DNA from: Phormidium sp. OSCR
Lineage (GTDB): Bacteria; Cyanobacteriota; Cyanobacteriia; Cyanobacteriales; Geitlerinemataceae
Reading direction: 5' to 3'
DNA: 64,000 bases
Assembly (NCBI GenBank): GCA_001314905.1
Contig: LJZT01000006.1
Coordinates: forward strand, 1-64,000
This document shows, piece after piece, positions 2,980 to 33,213 of the stretch. Within the stretch, counting starts at the first letter, position 1, and every line of letters starts with the position of its first letter. The position numbers and the translations under genes were made by a program. The notes below the pieces were generated by a model, which saw only the letters and a program-made list of their open reading frames with translations, ran no database searches and had not been told where the DNA came from.

Positions 2980-3210
2980 ATCTGTTCTCCTAACCGTTTA
3001 TCGGCGATTGATGGTCTTTTCCAGGAATAGACATCACCGCTGCGATCAATGCTTAGTCCTGGGGATGCGATCGCCCTATTCTCAGCCTAAAATCGTATTG
3101 TGGCGAAGATTAAACAAATCCAAGCTGTAAAATCTTGAACAATACCTAACGAATAAAACGTTCCCATTTTAACGACTTAAACCCACCCTAAACAGTCTAT
3201 AATAACAAGT

Positions 3211-3708
3211 TTAACCCAAATCTTTAGAATCTGCCAAAGCCAAGAGAAAATCAACATACCCCTGCAAATCCGCGCCAATCAAAGGAACCACCTGGTCATA
3301 CACCGACCTGAGATAATCCAATCGCCGCCAATCATAATCAAACTCATAGTAATACCGCTTAAAATGGCGAAAGCGCCGCAGTTCATCGAGCAAGCGATAG
3401 GTTTCTCGCGACAAAACCGCTTTACGCACACCCGGAACCTCAACCCGCATTTTTTGCAATAACTCCTTGTGCCACTGCTGCGGGTCTAAATGATTCTCAA
3501 ACTGGCGAGCAATCCGAAACAAAATTGTTTCGACACAGGTGTAGGTATTACACAAAATCTCCGCCAACAAGACCGCATCCCGCACATCCCGTTGACTCGG
3601 GTCAGCAAACTGGCTCTCATAGGACTCATAAAGCCCTTGCAGCCGTTCGAGAACCGACTGACTCTCACGAATTTCCCCCACCAACAGCAACAGGTTATCT
3701 CTCACCAT
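3211..3708 (-). CDS. HepT-like (HEPN) protein of an MNT-HepT pair
   Basis: A 165-residue all-alpha protein that looks like the HepT-like family often paired with a minimal nucleotidyltransferase. The strongest cue is the helix LRRFRHFKRYYYEFDYDW, with an Arg/His cluster at the place of the HEPN RNase motif; the spacing is R-x3-H rather than the classical R-x4-6-H. I choose ATG 3708 (MVRDNLLLL); a longer reading from 3756 would extend far into the neighbour. The start lies 14 bases inside the end of the MNT gene, with AGGTG upstream in that gene, so the two are translationally coupled. By analogy with MNT/HepT systems this would be the RNase toxin, to be silenced by AMPylation by its partner; this is inference. 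Confidence 0.65.
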   Translation of the reverse strand: MVRDNLLLLVGEIRESQSVLERLQGLYESYESQFADPSQRDVRDAVLLAEILCNTYTCVETILFRIARQFENHLDPQQWHKELLQKMRVEVPGVRKAVLSRETYRLLDELRRFRHFKRYYYEFDYDWRRLDYLRSVYDQVVPLIGADLQGYVDFLLALADSKDLG

Positions 3709-6547: not shown

Positions 6548-8905
6548 ATGTCTCCTCCCATTCCTCCTCATCCCCCTCGTTCAGCTAAACAACTCCTACA
6601 ATTAGGACTGGCCCAAATGCAACGGGGCCAGTTTCAAGCGGCGATCGCCTCATTCGAGCAAGTCTGTCGTCTCAGTCCTCATGCCGTCCAACAGTTCAAA
6701 GCCCAGCGAGCCTTAGTCTCGTTATATCGCAAAACCGGCCAAGACCAGACGGCGATCGCCCTCTGTCAAGACCTATGTCAACATCCCCATCCCAAAGTCC
6801 AAACCTGGGCCAGCCAGAAACTCCAACAACTCAGCCCCAACTCCCCGGAACCGCCCTCAGAAGCCTTGGGGTTTATTCCCCTAGACACCAGCCCCGAAGC
6901 GTCCACCCCCAGCCAACGGGAAGTCTACAGCCCTCCCCAAAAACCAGCCACAGAACCCGAATTAGCCTTTACCCTCCTAGACAACGCCACCCCCGACGCT
7001 CCCAACCCGGACAAACCCCAACCATCTCCCGAAGCATCTCCCGAAGCATCTCCCGAAGCATCTCCCGAAGCATCTCCCCAAACAACCAGTAGCGAAGACT
7101 GGCAAGAGAAGCCCCTAGAGCGTCCCCAAGAGCGGCGATCGCTCAAACCCCCTCCCCTCGGACGACTGCGAGGACTAGAGGTAGTGACCGCCATATTGGT
7201 CTTTATCAGCATCTCCCTGCCCCTGCATGGGCTGCTAACGGCAATCAATGAACTTTTTATCAGAACGGGTCTCCTTCGTCCCATTCAAGCCTTTTTCAAT
7301 AACTACAACGGTCAGATTATCCTGTTCTTGATCGTCTGCACCGCCATCTCCCCCTGGCTCTTAGACGCGATACTACGTCTCAATTGGGGCAGCCGTAGCT
7401 TTTCCCTAACTCAACTCGGGACCTTTAGCCCCGAAGCCAAACAGGCCCTGCGTCAACTCTGCCGCAACCATCAAATTGCCATCCCGCAATTGCGCCTCAT
7501 TGCCGACGACGCGCCGATTCTCTTTAGCTATGGAACCCTGCCCCGTTATGGCCGCCTAGCCATCAGTCGCGGTCTCCTCAACCGCCTCAACTCCGAGGAA
7601 ATTGCCCTGTTAGTCATCGCCGAACTAGCCCACATTCGCCATGGGAACCTCCTGGCCCTGTCCGGCTTCGGGGCTATCTTGCAACTGCCCTATACCCTCT
7701 ATCTCCAGAGTAGTCGTTTAGGAGATTGGCTGGGCGATCGCGCCTCAAACAGCTCCCAAACCGCACTGGTGATTCTTTATCAAACCGGCTTTTGGCTGAC
7801 AGCCATCCTATCCAGCCTCAGTTATGGCCTCTTCAAACTCTGGCGCTATCCCATTCTTCCCCTCTCCCGCCTGCATCACAGTTATCGCGATCGCCTCGCC
7901 TTGGACTTGAGCGGCCATCCCAACGGCCTCACCCGAGGCTTACTCTCCCTGGCCCAAGCCATTGGCGAACATCGACGCCAGCACCCCGAATCGGGCAGCC
8001 TCTACGAAAGTTGGGAACCCCTAACCCCCATCGGCGATCGTGATGGCCAAATCTCAGGCCAATTACTCCACCACTATCCCCCCGAAACCCTCTTTTCCTG
8101 GCACTTAAAAAGCCCCTACGCTCCCTGGCTGAATCTCAACCAAACCCATCCCCTCCTCGGGCGGCGTTTATATCGTTTCCAGCGTTGCGCCGAATTTTGG
8201 CAAGTCTCCCCCCTCCTCAACTGGGCCGACGCCACCCCAGTCAAACCCCATCTGCGCACTCCCGGCCTCTTTCGCCTGCAAGGAGCGCCCTTTTTCGCCA
8301 CCGCGATCGGCATCGGCTTCGCCCTCGGTCCGGCCCTCATTGGCTGGATCGATCGCCTCTTTAAACTCCGCTACGTCGGCTGGCTGTATACCGATCGCTG
8401 GTGGCTTTTATTGGGGCTAACCCTGGGTGGATTTGCCGTAGGAACAGTCCTTCGCTTCAACGCCTTTTTCCCCGAGTTAAAACCCCAGCTTTTCCATGAC
8501 TCACCCGACTGGCACAAATGGCTCACCAACCCCCAAGCCTTGCCCATTGATAGTTTCCCAGTGAAACTCTCAGGACGATTGCGAGGACGCAAAGGAACCG
8601 AAAACTGGCTCGGTCAAGATCTCGTGTTAGACCTCGACGATTGGCAGATTCCTCTCCATATCTGTAGTCGTTTCGGTCCTCTGGGGGAGGTTTTACCGCA
8701 ACCACTACGCCCTCTGGAAGCCTGCGATCAGGAGGTAGTCGTCACGGGTTGGTTCCGTCGTGGGGTTAGCCCTTGGATTGACGTGGATCAGATACAGTGT
8801 TCTCAGGGAGAAACTCCGCCCAATGGACATCCTGTTTGGTCAATTATTGTCGTCTTGTTAGGTGCCGTTTGGGGGGCGTACTTTCTCGTTCGAGGTGGAT
8901 TATAA
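6548..8905 (+). CDS. TPR protein with degenerate M48 peptidase domain
   Basis: A 785-residue multidomain membrane protein. Residues 12-100 form TPR-like helices; 100-200 are Pro/Ser/Glu-rich with a four-fold SPEA repeat; hydrophobic segments lie near 211-235 and 257-280; and an HtpX/M48-like domain follows (about 300-480). At the expected HExxH zinc site the sequence is AELAHIRHG: the first His is Ala358 while Glu359 and His362 remain, so classical metalloprotease activity looks lost or altered. Further hydrophobic segments occur around 575-640, and the C-terminus carries a beta-rich region resembling an OB-like extension (WLGQDLVLDLDDW) and a final membrane helix. Role unknown; possibly a pseudo-protease scaffold in membrane quality control. 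Confidence 0.8.
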   Translation: MSPPIPPHPPRSAKQLLQLGLAQMQRGQFQAAIASFEQVCRLSPHAVQQFKAQRALVSLYRKTGQDQTAIALCQDLCQHPHPKVQTWASQKLQQLSPNSPEPPSEALGFIPLDTSPEASTPSQREVYSPPQKPATEPELAFTLLDNATPDAPNPDKPQPSPEASPEASPEASPEASPQTTSSEDWQEKPLERPQERRSLKPPPLGRLRGLEVVTAILVFISISLPLHGLLTAINELFIRTGLLRPIQAFFNNYNGQIILFLIVCTAISPWLLDAILRLNWGSRSFSLTQLGTFSPEAKQALRQLCRNHQIAIPQLRLIADDAPILFSYGTLPRYGRLAISRGLLNRLNSEEIALLVIAELAHIRHGNLLALSGFGAILQLPYTLYLQSSRLGDWLGDRASNSSQTALVILYQTGFWLTAILSSLSYGLFKLWRYPILPLSRLHHSYRDRLALDLSGHPNGLTRGLLSLAQAIGEHRRQHPESGSLYESWEPLTPIGDRDGQISGQLLHHYPPETLFSWHLKSPYAPWLNLNQTHPLLGRRLYRFQRCAEFWQVSPLLNWADATPVKPHLRTPGLFRLQGAPFFATAIGIGFALGPALIGWIDRLFKLRYVGWLYTDRWWLLLGLTLGGFAVGTVLRFNAFFPELKPQLFHDSPDWHKWLTNPQALPIDSFPVKLSGRLRGRKGTENWLGQDLVLDLDDWQIPLHICSRFGPLGEVLPQPLRPLEACDQEVVVTGWFRRGVSPWIDVDQIQCSQGETPPNGHPVWSIIVVLLGAVWGAYFLVRGGL
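7023..7080 (+). repeat. 12-bp in-frame tandem repeat (SPEA)
   Basis: Four perfect copies of a 12-base unit (CATCTCCCGAAG) plus a partial fifth, encoding SPEA repeats in the linker between the TPR and membrane parts of the M48-like protein. Perfect nucleotide identity suggests recent slippage expansion. Confidence 0.9.
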
Positions 8906-29087: not shown

Positions 29088-29951
29088 ATGGACTGTATTA
29101 TCAACCGTCGCGCCCAATTTTCCGCCGGTCACCGCTACTGGCTCCCGGAACTGAGCGAAGCCGAGAATCGCCGCCAGTTCGGGGCTTGCGCCAATACCCA
29201 CGGCCACGGACACAACTATGTTCTCTATGTATCAATGGCCGGAGAACTCGATGAGTATGGCATGGTGCTGAACTTATCGAACATCAAACATGATATTAAA
29301 CGGGAAGTCACCAGTCAGCTTGACTTTTCCTTTTTGAACGAAGTTTGGCCCGAATTTAAGGAGACTTTACCCACCACTGAAAATGTGGCGCGGGTCATTT
29401 GGCAACGACTCCAGCCCCATCTCCCCCTCGTCAAAATTCAGCTTTCGGAACATCCTGATTTATGGGCCGATTACTTTGGCAACGGCTGGGAAGCTCATTT
29501 AACCACTTGCACTCATTTTAGTGCCGCCCATCGCCTGGCCATTCCTGATGCCAGCGACGATGAAAATGATGCGATTTATGGCAAATGTGCTTATCCCCAT
29601 GGTCATGGTCACAACTACAATTTAGAAGTGACGGTGAAGGGAGAAATGGATCAACGCACGGGAATGCTAGTTGATTTGGGGGCATTAAATCAACTAATCG
29701 AGGATTTGGTGGCCGAACCCTTCGACCATACCTTCCTGAATTATGACATTCCCTATTTTGAGAAAACCGTCCCCACTACTGAGAATTTTGTCCTACATAT
29801 TCGCGATATTTTGACGCAACCGATTCGCGATTTGGGAGCAAGTTTATATAAGGTGAAACTGATTGAAAGTCCGGGCAATTCCTGTGAAGTGTTGGGAGAA
29901 GCGGATGCCGAAACTCCCCCGTCGGAAGCGGAATTAGTGGGTGCAGTTTAA
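29088..29951 (+). CDS. tandem-domain 6-pyruvoyl/6-carboxytetrahydropterin synthase
   Basis: A 287-residue protein made of two fused PTPS/QueD domains. Copy one (1-125) has FSAGHRYW, GACANTHGHGHNY and PTTENVARVI; copy two (about 135-265) has FSAAHRL, GKCAYPHGHGHNY and VPTTENFVLHI. Both retain the catalytic Cys and the zinc His triad (H-HGHGH), so two active sites per chain are plausible. QueD makes 6-carboxytetrahydropterin in queuosine synthesis; PTPS makes pyruvoyl-tetrahydropterin. Which reaction applies cannot be told from sequence alone. Tandem forms are known in cyanobacteria. Confidence 0.88.
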   Translation: MDCIINRRAQFSAGHRYWLPELSEAENRRQFGACANTHGHGHNYVLYVSMAGELDEYGMVLNLSNIKHDIKREVTSQLDFSFLNEVWPEFKETLPTTENVARVIWQRLQPHLPLVKIQLSEHPDLWADYFGNGWEAHLTTCTHFSAAHRLAIPDASDDENDAIYGKCAYPHGHGHNYNLEVTVKGEMDQRTGMLVDLGALNQLIEDLVAEPFDHTFLNYDIPYFEKTVPTTENFVLHIRDILTQPIRDLGASLYKVKLIESPGNSCEVLGEADAETPPSEAELVGAV

Positions 29952-29976
29952 CAGCACAAACATACGACAGCGAAGA

Positions 29977-30076
29977 GGGCGAACCGCCGTTCGCCCCTAC
30001 AATTGCACTTCCCACTCTCCCCCTCTCGTGTCATGGCTGAAGCCGTGACACGCTCTGGGGGAGGCTCCGCCTCCCC
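29977..30076. repeat. three adjacent intergenic hairpins
   Basis: GGGCGAAC-cgcc-GTTCGCCC (29977-29996), a 12-bp stem CGTGTCATGGCT/AGCCGTGACACG with one mismatch (30027-30052), and GGGGAGGC-tcc-GCCTCCCC (30058-30076) lie in the gap between the PTPS gene and the aldo/keto reductase. Such hairpin-forming units are typical dispersed intergenic repeats of cyanobacteria; no gene is seen in 29952-30209. Confidence 0.75.
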
Positions 30077-30209
30077 TAAGCTGAACAGCAAAAAGAACCG
30101 GGAAGCCATGGCGAAACCCATTACCACAAAAACGATAAAACGTCAAGAGGCGACTTTCAAATCCTAGAATTCTTCCGGAAACTAGGAACGATGGAGATTT
30201 CTCAGCCAA

Positions 30210-31184
30210 CTACACCCCGGCAAACTCCCAGAGGACGTTATTGCCGTAGTCGAGGGGATCGGTGACGATGCGACCGATGCGATCGATCTCGGCAAGGTCG
30301 TTGGAGGAGAGGTCGAGTTCGGCGGCTTTGGCGTTGTCCTGCGCCTGTTCCGGGCTGCGCGCCCCGACGATCGCAAACGACTCCGGCTGTTTCACCAACC
30401 AGGCGATCGCCAGTTGTGCCAGGGTGCAGTGGTTGCGTTCGGCGACGGGACGGAGTTTGTCGAGGGCGGTTTGCACGCGATCGTAGTTGTTGCGATCGGC
30501 AAACAGCTTGTTTTTCGCGCGGTGGTCGCCCTCCTCGAACTGGTGATCGCGTCCGAACTTACCCGTCAGCAACCCTTGCGCCAGGGACGAGTAGGCCAAA
30601 ATTGCGATGTTGTGTTCGACGCAGTAAGGCATTACCCCGTCCTCGATCTCGCGCCAGAACAGGGAATAGGGCGGTTGCAGGCTATCGATGCGTCCGTACT
30701 GCGACGCTTCTGCCAGTTGCGCGGCGGAAAAGTTAGACACGCCGATCGCCCGAATCTTACCGTCTGCCTTCAGCTTCGTCAGCGCCGACATGGTTTCTTC
30801 AAGGGGAACCACGTCGCTGCCCCAACAGCCGGAGGGCCAGTGAATTTGGTAGAGGTCGATGTAGTCGGTTTGCAGGTTCCGCAGCGATCGCTCGCAGGCT
30901 TCGAGTACCTGGTCGTACTTAAGATGGTTGGCAAAGACTTTGTCGGCGTACACCACCTTATCGCGCACGTCAGCCAGCGCCCGCGCCACGATCTGTTCGG
31001 AATGTCCGTCGCCGTACTGTTCGGCGGTGTCGATGCTGGTGATGCCCGCATCGTAGGCGGCGCGAATCGTCCGCACCATCTCCTCGTCGTCGATTCCCGT
31101 CCACATGGCTTTGCCCGCCTGCCAGGTTCCCAGCAAAACGGGGGTCATTTGCACGTCAGATTTACCAAGTTTGCGCGTGTTCAC
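30210..31184 (-). CDS. aldo/keto reductase
   Basis: A 324-residue NAD(P)H-dependent aldo/keto reductase. The catalytic tetrad is visible: Asp and Tyr in SIDTAEQYGDG, Lys in VVYADKVF, and His in LYQIHWP. Cofactor-side motifs are IGVSNFSAAQL and IAILAYSSLAQGLLTGKF, with AIVGARSPEQAQDN near the end. GTG 31184 is the chosen start because AGGAGA lies 8 bases upstream; a TTG at 31202 is less likely. Codon use is clearly GC-richer than the neighbours (many GCG, CGC, ACG), and it lies next to repeats and fragments, so recent transfer is likely. The substrate is unknown. Confidence 0.92.
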   Translation of the reverse strand: MNTRKLGKSDVQMTPVLLGTWQAGKAMWTGIDDEEMVRTIRAAYDAGITSIDTAEQYGDGHSEQIVARALADVRDKVVYADKVFANHLKYDQVLEACERSLRNLQTDYIDLYQIHWPSGCWGSDVVPLEETMSALTKLKADGKIRAIGVSNFSAAQLAEASQYGRIDSLQPPYSLFWREIEDGVMPYCVEHNIAILAYSSLAQGLLTGKFGRDHQFEEGDHRAKNKLFADRNNYDRVQTALDKLRPVAERNHCTLAQLAIAWLVKQPESFAIVGARSPEQAQDNAKAAELDLSSNDLAEIDRIGRIVTDPLDYGNNVLWEFAGV

Positions 31185-31275
31185 GGTGAAGTCTCCTTGC
31201 AATGAGTTGGGACAATTGAGGGGGATTAGCTTACGATTTCGGTCTTCAGAATCGGGATATATTAGGCTGATGCAG

Positions 31276-31341
31276 AAACCCGGTCTCTAAACGGTGTGTT
31301 CTGGTTTGAGCGTCTCGTTCTCAACGGGAAGCCGGGTTTTT
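31276..31341. repeat. inverted-repeat unit ending AAACCCGG...CCGGGTTT
   Basis: AAACCCGG (31276-31283) pairs with CCGGGTTT (31332-31339), with about 48 bases between and a T run after. This resembles the common dispersed cyanobacterial 'AAACCCGGTTT' repeat. It lies upstream of the aldo/keto reductase start and could also act as a plus-strand terminator. Confidence 0.6.
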
Positions 31342-31641
31342 CAGTTTAAAATAGCTCGATTTTAGTCTGGGTTTTGAACGCGATCGAGACTCAGGCTAGA
31401 CTATCTTTTCAAAAATAGGACGGTTTTAAAAACAGCGCATCCTACTTTGGATGGATAGTGCGATCGGCTCGATGCCGAATCTCGACGACGACGCGGCTGA
31501 CAATTCCTCGGAGGCGGCGATCGTCAAGCAGCTATGCGGAGGCGATCGACGATCTGACGCTTGCGGCGGAGAATGCCAGTCTCTACAAGGGCTTGCAGGA
31601 GCTGAACGAGCCGAAAAGTGTTCAACCTCTGGTACTCCCAT
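31342..31641. other. gene-poor stretch with unidentified coding scrap
   Basis: No complete gene is seen. A plus-strand open stretch (31458-31643) encodes YAEAIDDLTLAAENASLYKG near its end, which looks protein-like but is not assigned, and it abuts the integrase fragment on the opposite strand. This suggests an insertion or rearrangement breakpoint. Confidence 0.4.
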
Positions 31642-31731
31642 AACGTAAGTTTGTTCGGTACGGTAGGAGTAGTGTTTGACTCGGATCGCGTCGCGCAGGC
31701 GATCGGGCAGCTTCTTGGGAGGAGGTTGCAT
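31642..31731 (-). pseudogene. N-terminal fragment of integron-type tyrosine recombinase
   Basis: The first 30 codons from ATG 31731 read RLRDAIRVKHYSYRTEQTYV near their end, the characteristic N-terminal SAM-like/core-binding opening of integron integrases and related tyrosine recombinases. After that the frame turns into unrelated sequence (a separate plus-strand open stretch at 31458-31643 crosses the junction), so the catalytic domain is gone. It is a relic. Confidence 0.65.
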
Positions 31732-31852
31732 GATTTGGGAATGCTTGTGCTGGGAAGTATTAAATTAATCCTAATGCAGCCTTGACGTTCGATCAAAATG
31801 GTAGTTATATTTTTCCGAAGCAGACGGGCTGTGAATGCGTAAGAAGTGCGGC

Positions 31853-31909
31853 GGCTGTGTTCCTGCGGAATAAGAATCCGTCTACAAAAACCGTGCGAAT
31901 CCTTAAATT
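31853..31909 (+). repeat. direct repeat, copy A (57 bp)
   Basis: Copy A of a diverged direct repeat whose other copy is at 32328-32385. Both begin GGCTGTGTTCCTG and share AATAAGAA and AACCGTGCG, ending in CCTT.AATT. Together they bracket the HPr-like gene. Confidence 0.7.
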
Positions 31910-32039
31910 AATAGGGTCTTCGGGGTTTAAGGCATAGAATGTGTAGTATAATAAAAAAAACAGGATTTTGATCGCTAAAATCCCTGAAGTTTCGTTGGCT
32001 TATTTTTTCTTTCACCCTAAACTCGGAAGACCCAATTAA
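31908..32039. mobile_element. MITE-like element with 14-bp terminal inverted repeats
   Basis: TTAATAGGGTCTTC (31908-31921) and GAAGACCCAATTAA (32026-32039) are inverted repeats with one mismatch, enclosing about 104 bp of AT-rich, non-coding sequence with an internal hairpin (CAGGATTTT...AAAATCCCTG, 31961-31986). TTAA sequences at the ends are reminiscent of TA/TTAA-target elements. No transposase is present. Confidence 0.5.
31947..31952 (+). promoter_or_regulatory. candidate -10 box for the HPr-like gene
   Basis: A perfect TATAAT lies about 100 bases upstream of the HPr-like ATG, inside the MITE-like element; no convincing -35 is seen at 17 bases. If used, the leader carries the hairpin at 31961-31986. 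Confidence 0.3.
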
Positions 32040-32052
32040 CAGGAGGTTCAAG

Positions 32053-32304
32053 ATGTATCAAAAAGAGATAGAAATTAAAGCAGATTTAGAAACTCGTCCA
32101 GCAGCACAGTTTGTTAAGGAAGCAAAGTCATTTGACGCTGAAATTGTCGTAACCGCTAATGGAAAGAGTGCAAGAGCAAAGAGTCTTTTTAAACTGCAAG
32201 CTCTTGGGTTGGTAAAAGGTACTGTAATTACCATTTCTGCAGAAGGACGTCAAGCGCAAGCCTCAGTTGACCATTTAGCTGATCTCATAGAACAACTGTG
32301 TTAG
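32053..32304 (+). CDS. HPr-like phosphocarrier with Glu at the phospho-His position
   Basis: An 83-residue HPr-family protein strikingly close to enterobacterial HPr: [33 protein letters not shown] and [10 protein letters not shown] align without gaps. The active-site loop is ADLETRPAA, two residues shorter than the usual NGLHTRPAA, and the phosphorylatable His15 is Glu13. Arg15 (Arg17 equivalent) and Ser44 (Ser46 equivalent) are kept. It therefore cannot carry phosphate in the normal PTS way and may be a mimic, a regulator or a decaying gene. ATG has a strong AGGAGG at 32041-32046. AT-richer codons than the surroundings and bracketing repeats point to horizontal gain. No PTS enzyme I or II is in the window. 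Confidence 0.85.
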
Positions 32305-32327
32305 CTCGAGGTAAGGTAAACTGACTT

Positions 32328-32385
32328 GGCTGTGTTCCTGATAAATAAGAAGCCATTTAAAACGAACCGTGCGGAACCTTGAATT
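32328..32385 (+). repeat. direct repeat, copy B
   Basis: Second copy of the repeat at 31853-31909, starting 23 bases after the HPr-like stop; identity is roughly three-quarters. It could represent an old element end or a cassette-like boundary. Confidence 0.7.
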
Positions 32386-32717
32386 TCAGATGATGGCAAG
32401 GGGACTAAAGTCCCCGAGTCGCTTTTCCACCCCGCTCTAAAGAGTCGGGGCTATCAAGCTCCCGAATCCTGGCGTATCCAGGAATAAACGATCGCGACTC
32501 ATTCGTTTCGATGACTTTAGCCGTAATCGAGTTACTCATAGGGTTTGTTTTTGACACTCCCTGAAAATGGGAAGGCAAGGGGCTTGCTGAGGTGGAACTG
32601 ATGGTTCAGTGCCAGTCGGAACAACCCGGCGCTCATCCGCTCATCATTGATATGATAGATGATAGAGCGCGGGCAAAACCAAGTGGAGGGTTCCCAATTT
32701 CTCGGCAACTGCCTCAA
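32386..32717. other. non-coding stretch with small hairpins
   Basis: No gene is supported. Palindromes include GGGGACTAAAGTCCCC (32400-32415) and CCTGG-cgtat-CCAGG (32467-32481), and a related GAGTCGGGG segment lies between them. This resembles an eroded insertion-sequence end. A 61-codon minus-strand frame at 32532-32717 has no recognisable domain. Confidence 0.4.
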
Positions 32718-33131
32718 CTAACTATCCTTATTCGCCTGAAACGCCTCGCGATCGCTCATCTCCACATCAATCCGAATCGACTCAATCCCATCCCGAGCCG
32801 CCAAAGACAGCATCGAATCTAATTGCACCCAAACCAGAAGTGCTGTGGGAATGACAACAATTGCACCTAGGGGATAGGCAAACAGGGGCGGAACTTCAAA
32901 GGTCGATAAACTCGTACAAACGCAAATCGTGGCAAACAGACAAGTGAACAGATAAGCCAGCTTTAAATTTGGCGTTTTATAGTGAATTTCTGAAGGATTG
33001 CCCTTCGACTTCCATAGAGCAAACTGATATTCCAAAATATCTTTAAAAACAATCCCGCAGAGAACCGCAAAGATACAACTAATCACAACAATCGTGTAAC
33101 TCGGTAAATTGGCTAGGCTGGAAAAATTCAT
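32718..33131 (-). CDS. small membrane protein of unknown function
   Basis: A 137-residue protein with three hydrophobic segments: YTIVVISCIFAVLCGIVF (about 12-29), YLFTCLFATICVCTSL (about 60-75) and FAYPLGAIVVIPTALLVWVQL (about 84-104). A hydrophilic C-terminus follows (MSDREAFQANKDS). No known family is recognised. The region upstream is AT-rich, consistent with a promoter. It is likely real because the hydrophobic pattern and codon use are gene-like. Confidence 0.6.
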   Translation of the reverse strand: MNFSSLANLPSYTIVVISCIFAVLCGIVFKDILEYQFALWKSKGNPSEIHYKTPNLKLAYLFTCLFATICVCTSLSTFEVPPLFAYPLGAIVVIPTALLVWVQLDSMLSLAARDGIESIRIDVEMSDREAFQANKDS

Positions 33132-33213
33132 AATTTTTAGAAATTTATTGAGTTCTTCGCCAATTGTAACACAAATCTTAACAAAAAATAGCCCTTAACT
33201 CCTTGACAAAACG

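Follow-up and report, generated by a model that had tools for sequence, protein, structure and literature searches.

In the cyanobacterium Phormidium sp. OSCR, we confirm, from its sequence, a foreign HPr gene of the gammaproteobacterial type whose product would be unable to use His15. The surprising part is that this residue appears to have been lost repeatedly in HPr genes captured by cyanobacteria. HPr is the textbook phosphocarrier defined by one histidine, and the known precedent of an HPr lacking His15 is Crh of Bacillus, a purely regulatory paralogue of Firmicute origin that carries Gln15, works through Ser46 phosphorylation and has HprK and CcpA as partners. No description of a His-less HPr in cyanobacteria was found in the literature that we searched, outside of which most subscription papers lie. 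Our tentative reading, to which we give slightly less than an even chance, is that the gene is a ptsH from a Vibrio-like donor, that it no longer takes part in phosphotransfer through His15, and that it would be kept as a phosphorylation-blind docking protein. Throughout, the window is the whole stretch of DNA that was analysed (64,000 nucleotides), G000 is the genome to which it belongs, and residue positions follow the numbering of enterobacterial HPr.

The gene encodes 83 amino acids, starts with ATG and contains no internal stop. Its product matches PF00381 (74-74.8 bits for a cut-off of 23) and TIGR01003 (68.3 bits for a cut-off of 47.9), and at 114.2 bits it misses the cut-off of 153 of the equivalog NF008104. 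In the alignment with Vibrio albus ptsH, 64 of the 83 residues are identical, N12 and G13 are gone, and the phosphorylatable His15 is replaced by Glu in a loop that is two residues shorter, which reads DLETRP where gammaproteobacterial HPr has NGLHTRP. Arg17, Lys24, Lys27, Ser46, Leu47, Phe48 and Lys49 are retained. Since the GAA codon is at least two base changes away from CAT or CAC and the adjoining 6-nt deletion is in frame, a sequencing error looks unlikely. The GC content of the reading frame is 0.397, to be compared with 0.518 for the whole window. Most of what a preliminary description had drawn from the letters alone is thus borne out, namely a gamma-type HPr with Glu in place of His15 and two residues lost, the retention of Ser46 and Arg17, the strong Shine-Dalgarno motif, the AT-rich composition and the flanking repeats (79-86% alike). 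Its label of enterobacterial-like has to be corrected, as the nearest relatives found are Vibrionaceae (77% identity), the Enterobacteriaceae standing at about 65%. A consensus scan of positions 31800-32720 detected no sigma-70-like promoter or consensus terminator, and no RNA element reached the gathering threshold in 31200-33200.

Table 1. Positions of the features, in the window unless a locus is named.
Feature	Position	Strand	Basis or remark
Integron-integrase-like tyrosine recombinase remnant, pointing away from the HPr gene	31426..31731	-	PF13495
First part of the attI-like region	31732..31809	.	homology with same-genus genomes
AT-rich stretch (GC 0.41) with the HPr gene	31810..32390	.	
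Left copy of the 57-58 nt direct repeat flanking the HPr gene	31853..31909	+	79% identical to right copy
AGGAGG ribosome-binding site, 6 nt 5' of the HPr ATG	32041..32046	+	read directly
HPr-like gene, His15 to Glu, N12-G13 deleted	32053..32304	+	PF00381, TIGR01003, alignment
Codons K A D L E T R P A of the shortened active-site loop, GAA at the His15 codon	32077..32103	+	
Right copy of the direct repeat flanking the HPr gene	32328..32385	+	
Orphan gamma-like EIIA-Glc gene of a cyanobacterium	L128:1799-2287	-	
Orphan gamma-like EIIA-Glc gene of a second cyanobacterium	L208:1432-1923	-	
Orphan gamma-like EIIA-Glc gene of a third cyanobacterium	L209:1381-1947	+	

The gene stands alone in its host. 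It is the sole HPr match in G000, and the earlier remark that no PTS partner lies in the window extends to the whole genome for HPr, EIIA-Glc and enzyme I as searched. Indeed, PF00358 returned no EIIA-Glc, and the enzyme I search, made with PF02896, returned two matches that both carry PPDK_N, so that they are PEP synthase/PPDK-like enzymes and not enzyme I. No enzyme I was found in G171 either, where the PEP-utiliser matches also carry PPDK_N. In one search, HPr was found in 8 of 59 genomes, including G000, and the other seven all lie outside its family. HPr is absent from all 13 other genomes of the family, of which six belong to the same genus and three are only 61-86% complete. The multi-domain HPr proteins of cyanobacteria, which are mostly about 815-890 aa long and about 28-44% identical to the queries, share the HPr domain family with the window protein, but they are fused and, in the copies fetched, have His at position 15, save one second domain with a gap there; none is found in the window genome.

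Two other cyanobacteria carry comparable genes. In G171, which belongs to a different family of the same order, a standalone HPr of 85 aa reads APNGLDTRP, with Asp for His15; in G552, from a third family, a standalone HPr reads APNGLYTRP, with Tyr. Against the NF008104 cut-off, the G552 protein passes with 174.3 bits despite its Tyr15, and the G171 protein stays below with 146.7. Directly upstream of the G552 HPr gene and on the same strand lies an EIIA-Glc-like gene of 162 aa, in which the motif FVYIG has a Tyr where Serratia and Aeromonas have the active-site His. Both Tyr codons of this pair are TAC, one base from CAC, and G552 also has a fused protein of the HPr plus enzyme I type. An RTX-repeat-like reading frame (GGNGNDIL-type repeats, by eye) is situated less than 1 kb upstream of the pair, on the minus strand (L141:11195-11848).

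Among the matches listed, His15 is lost in three of the three gamma-like standalone HPr genes of cyanobacteria (Glu in G000, Asp in G171, Tyr in G552), a small count that includes the window case, picked for its oddness (two of two without it), and that omits 11 genomes with one HPr match each, whose frame and residue 15 are not among the matches listed, as well as several short frames at 30-36% identity (such as that of 247 aa in G1020). The searches with HPr queries covered 59, 291, 388, 217 and 388 genomes in overlapping samples, and the tabulation of residue 15 comes from profile alignments in which a gene present in more than one locus can account for several rows. The 11 genomes belong to the sample of 217, of which the three that gave two matches, in addition to G552, were all followed up. 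The preliminary description had imagined a conserved clade of HPr with Glu15. No further Glu15 gamma-type HPr occurs among the cyanobacterial rows fetched, and by the refuting condition set in that description, the lack of other homologues of this type, the idea fails. The broader pattern, in which captured HPr genes lose His15 time and again, is stronger than the description had supposed. The sole other Glu15 was met in an HPr of an unverified faecal phage contig (L187, MT837595.1, about 3001-3225), which reads GLEARP and, by eye, is Crh/Firmicute-like and not gamma-type.

Short-frame, foreign-looking HPr genes that keep their His were found in G694, G695 and G1015, genomes rated 2-6% contaminated. 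The first two stand at contig starts, and all three look alphaproteobacterial by eye. One may wonder if the window gene, itself compositionally foreign, is not a product of contamination or of an assembly error. We regard this as extremely unlikely, since the gene lies within a contig of 82 kb, between neighbours that on both sides match same-genus genomes at about 80-95%; the genome is moreover rated 100% complete and 0.03% contaminated, and the foreign-looking HPr genes of the contaminated genomes have retained the His that is at stake here.

The captured EIIA proteins behave less uniformly than the HPr. The active-site His is lost in one of three standalone EIIA, two of which come from the 386 genomes searched and the third of which is the neighbour of the G552 HPr gene. 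The orphan gamma-like EIIA-Glc of G535 and G195 keep it, so that His loss is no general rule for captured PTS proteins, and the EIIA of G535 and G552 are 82% alike.

The three HPr genes point to different sources. Among the sequences at hand, the nearest by identity is Vibrio for the window gene (77%), Serratia for G171 (76.5%) and Salmonella for G552 (88%). The tree places the window gene with Vibrio albus (90/89), nested among Vibrionaceae, G171 next to Enterobacterales (94/87) and G552 within them (98/86). When the loop columns are removed, the grouping of the three copies into a single clade is rejected by the AU test (p = 0.0072) and appears in 0 of 200 bootstrap trees; the program warned here of few columns and long branches. 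With a single origin rejected in this way, the three copies were probably acquired separately. The reference set holds 84 gamma HPr genes, of which 79 are from Vibrionaceae (79 of the 80 Vibrionaceae loci entered the alignment), four from Enterobacterales and one from Aeromonas, and because of this composition the exact donors are not fixed. A Photobacterium plasmid HPr that keeps its His (L258) is in the tree and outside the 84. His15 is invariant across these 84 aligned genes.

This set also provides a measure of what has changed. At the 44 columns that are invariant in the gamma set, G552 shows 2 changes (H15Y, L53I), G171 shows 4 (V6A, H15D, A19V, A42V) and the window copy shows 7 (V6I, loss of N12, loss of G13, H15E, S43R, T52A, V78A). 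With His15 set aside, 4 of 48 cells are changed in the docking set, made up of 17 HPr residues described in the literature; outside this set, the count is 44 of 204 (p = 0.023, one-sided Fisher test). Part of these changes will be older than the transfers, and gamma HPr conserves its docking surface in any case. Values of dN for the HPr copies are 0.09-0.16 and dS is saturated; as each copy is a singleton in its sample, the constraint exerted before and after transfer is inseparable.

The predicted structure is that of an ordinary HPr. The AlphaFold model, built on an alignment of 15 sequences, has a mean pLDDT of 89.5, with 83 over residues 11-20, where the shortened loop lies. Its TM scores against the solved chains of E. 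coli HPr, 0.92-0.96 when taken by query length, place it in the open-faced beta-sandwich fold of HPr, and the shorter loop does not spoil this fold as predicted. The best PDB match is the engineered E. coli H15D HPr 1cm3 (rmsd 0.8, TM 0.93); the other close chains comprise 3ccd, Rsd-HPr, wild-type HPr, two glycogen phosphorylase-HPr complexes and the V. cholerae FruR-HPr. The change engineered in H15D HPr (1cm3, 1cm2, 3ccd) is carried naturally by G171, but H15D and H15A were engineered in the laboratory and act in cells whose PTS is complete, unlike the cyanobacterial copies. In the same way, the window protein has in common with gammaproteobacterial HPr (ptsH) its fold, Arg17, Lys24, Lys27, the Ser46-Leu47-Phe48 stretch and its identity to Vibrio, but it differs in its missing His15, its shorter loop and a genome without detected enzyme I. 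With Crh, it shares the fold (37% identity to 1zvv_J), a non-His residue at position 15 and a kept Ser46, but this residue is Glu and not Gln, and the protein is of the gamma type, nested among Vibrionaceae.

Why, then, would the same histidine go? The main rival to our reading is relaxed selection, in which a foreign ptsH, its phospho-acceptor useless in a host that has no enzyme I, drifts to loss and is still an intact reading frame only because it arrived recently. It is a weaker form of the recent degeneracy that the preliminary description had allowed for, and we hold it to be possible, if rather doubtful. In G000 and G171, where the searches gave no enzyme I, His15 could go without any positive cause. 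The AT-rich composition leaves room for a recent transfer, none of the six other same-genus genomes has the gene, and the window copy is changed at 7 of 44 otherwise invariant columns. Drift sits less well with the fact that His15 was struck in all three independent copies along with few other invariant sites; if changes were uniform, the chance of hitting it in the two later copies would be about 20/85 x 10/85 = 0.03. Furthermore, G552 has an enzyme I-type fusion and has nevertheless lost the His of both HPr and EIIA, and the change in the window took two base changes plus an in-frame deletion.

The loss of the same His in unrelated cyanobacteria rather suggests, at the level of sequence, a protein kept for something other than passing phosphate. 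HPr has a second activity, described for E. coli in three papers (PMC6763467, PMC5320558, PMC11046441): enzyme I, Rsd, LsrK and MtlR dock on it through Phe48 and a basic patch; the binding of MtlR and Rsd is lost when HPr is phosphorylated; that of MtlR is lost or reduced with R17A, K27E, S46D and L47A/F48A; and glycogen phosphorylase is also regulated by HPr. In gammaproteobacteria, dephospho-HPr acts as a regulator in its own right, and its docking face consists of Phe48/Leu47 and of the basic patch around Arg17 and Lys27. Since phosphorylation switches docking off for some partners, a copy that cannot be phosphorylated would be a constant 'on' ligand, equivalent to permanent dephospho-HPr. 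Such a protein can be made in the laboratory: the engineered HPr(H15A) is a dominant regulator in E. coli, according to PMC5320558, and in V. vulnificus, where dephospho-HPr stimulates pyruvate kinase A (PykA), HPr(H15A) stimulates PykA too and raises the resistance to H2O2 when PykA is present, as stated in PMC5987630. As HPr(H15A) still regulates its partners, removing the His is a known way to a constant regulator.

According to the docking reading, a ptsH captured from a Vibrio-like donor would have dropped out of phosphotransfer through His15 and gone on binding host proteins. The candidate partners would be the glycogen phosphorylase and the pyruvate kinase of the host, because HPr binds them in E. 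coli and Vibrio vulnificus, respectively. The PykA effect is reported, also in PMC5987630, to be absent in E. coli, so that the cyanobacterial pyruvate kinase may not respond. The production of the window protein, its binding to a partner and the identity of this partner are all steps that we infer. Five points argue, tentatively and with a little less than even weight, for this reading: the predicted fold, the loss of His15, the lack of any enzyme I found, the independent recurrence and the preservation of most of the docking surface. The EIIA of G552, which has also lost its active-site His, to Tyr, counts for it as well. Against it count the S43R, T52A and V78A changes and the loop deletion of the window copy, as expected of a slowly decaying gene, the negative promoter scan, the kept His of the G535 and G195 EIIA and the fact that the copies are singletons. 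Finally, the acidic Glu or Asp at position 15 might act in the way of a phosphate and make docking to acidic pockets weaker.

The acidic residues may also be read the other way. It had been proposed from the window alone that Glu may mimic phospho-His and give a permanently 'charged' regulatory HPr. This is improbable in our view. The residue is acidic in two of the three copies, and structures of the E. coli H15D HPr exist (1cm3, 3ccd), but the third copy has Tyr, which is no mimic of phospho-His, Glu and Asp are at best weak ones, and PF00358, which stands for the one EII family searched, detects no glucose-class EIIA in the genome. Of the proposed regulatory HPr, what stands is a foreign gamma-type HPr without a usable His15; its retention for regulation is plausible only, and the mimicry by Glu is not supported.

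A further use of a His-less HPr, or of a His-less HPr/EIIA pair, would be that of a decoy jamming the PTS of gammaproteobacterial neighbours if it were delivered to them. Extra HPr(H15A) does slow E. coli on mannitol, as PMC5320558 reports, and in G552 both members of the pair are His-less and an RTX-repeat-like reading frame lies within 1 kb. We nonetheless consider a decoy very improbable, given that no delivery system was noticed in the lists of reading frames of the window and of the G552 locus, and that neither PADLOC, run with the three HPr, nor PHROGs, run with the window HPr and the G552 EIIA, gave any match.

Taken beyond the window gene, the docking reading leads to a broader proposal that is possible but doubtful, well short of an even chance: that cyanobacteria repeatedly capture PTS proteins from gammaproteobacteria and turn them into phosphorylation-blind regulators or decoys by removing the phospho-acceptor His. 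If this were true, an invention like that of Crh would have arisen several times over out of another starting protein, two of the three hosts having no detectable enzyme I, and the second role of HPr, that of an allosteric ligand of proteins of carbon metabolism, would be selectable on its own. The H15E, H15D and H15Y alleles would then be natural material to address a question for which laboratory mutants have served until now. The hypothesis that they bring is that a foreign HPr gives a phototroph a ligand of its glycogen phosphorylase or pyruvate kinase that is constantly 'on'.

As to how the gene arrived, its sequence context looks like that of a former cassette slot. Integrons in cyanobacteria have already been reported (PMC2426708, PMC9668308). 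The integrase remnant of the window matches PF13495 over 25 residues with 19.6 bits, below the cut-off of 27. In four of the six same-genus genomes (G001, G004, G005, G006), homology with this remnant and the DNA that follows stops at 31802-31809, just before the foreign stretch, and the latter (31810-32390) has no match in the six genomes except a weak one of 64 nt in G004. Beyond the slot, these four genomes show by eye toxin-antitoxin-like pairs, a ParA-like protein and helicases, which differ per genome. The order aldo-keto reductase, remnant, variable slot and region from 32718 is found in one stretch only in G001 and G006, whereas G005 and G004 have the pieces apart. An attI-like stretch of repeated units is present in the relatives, together with attC-like hairpins. 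The integrase of G005 is longer than the remnant and contains an in-frame TAG (202 bits for a cut-off of 265 with TIGR02249); the same model has no match at E 1e-10 in the window's own genome. Integron-like platforms with an IntI-like gene and variable genes are also seen in the same-genus loci L220, L221, L223 and L225, some beside an aldo-keto reductase, and positions 31264-31809 of the window look like a truncated form of them.

The likeness to an integron cassette thus consists of a foreign gene that adjoins an attI-like site, is oriented away from an IntI-like remnant and lies between direct repeats; the window differs in that no attC-like hairpin was found, the attI is truncated and the integrase is a fragment. 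A home-made scan, which also matched loci without integron and had no shuffled control, gave no attC-like hairpin in 29501-33000 and gave candidates in L220, L221 and L223. The flanking repeats were considered as attC hairpins and rejected, their copies folding no better than shuffles. With no recognisable attC and a truncated attI, capture as a cassette is only something that we infer. The HPr gene of G171 is likewise flanked by direct repeats (L142:8064-8136 and 8619-8675), which, on account of their GCGATCGC-type sequence, are not taken as cassette ends.

A mobile slot would fit a donor that already held a His-less HPr paralogue on a mobile element, from which the cyanobacteria got it ready-made. 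We find this quite improbable, given the invariant His15 of the 84 gamma HPr genes and the attachment of the three copies to different gamma branches. Likewise, scanning IMG/VR with the window HPr and with that of G552 gave no relative, and the plasmid records with at least 60% identity are from Enterobacterales plus one Aeromonas and are ptsH where annotated, so plasmid carriage was set aside. Phage carriage was discarded as well, with six faecal phage contigs all under 41% identity (five with His, one with Glu). A single EIIA match was obtained in IMG/VR (L172), and it keeps its His. Lastly, an element of about 90 nt (32390-32478) directly follows the right flanking repeat, with 100% copies in G006 and G003 and shorter copies elsewhere in the genus.
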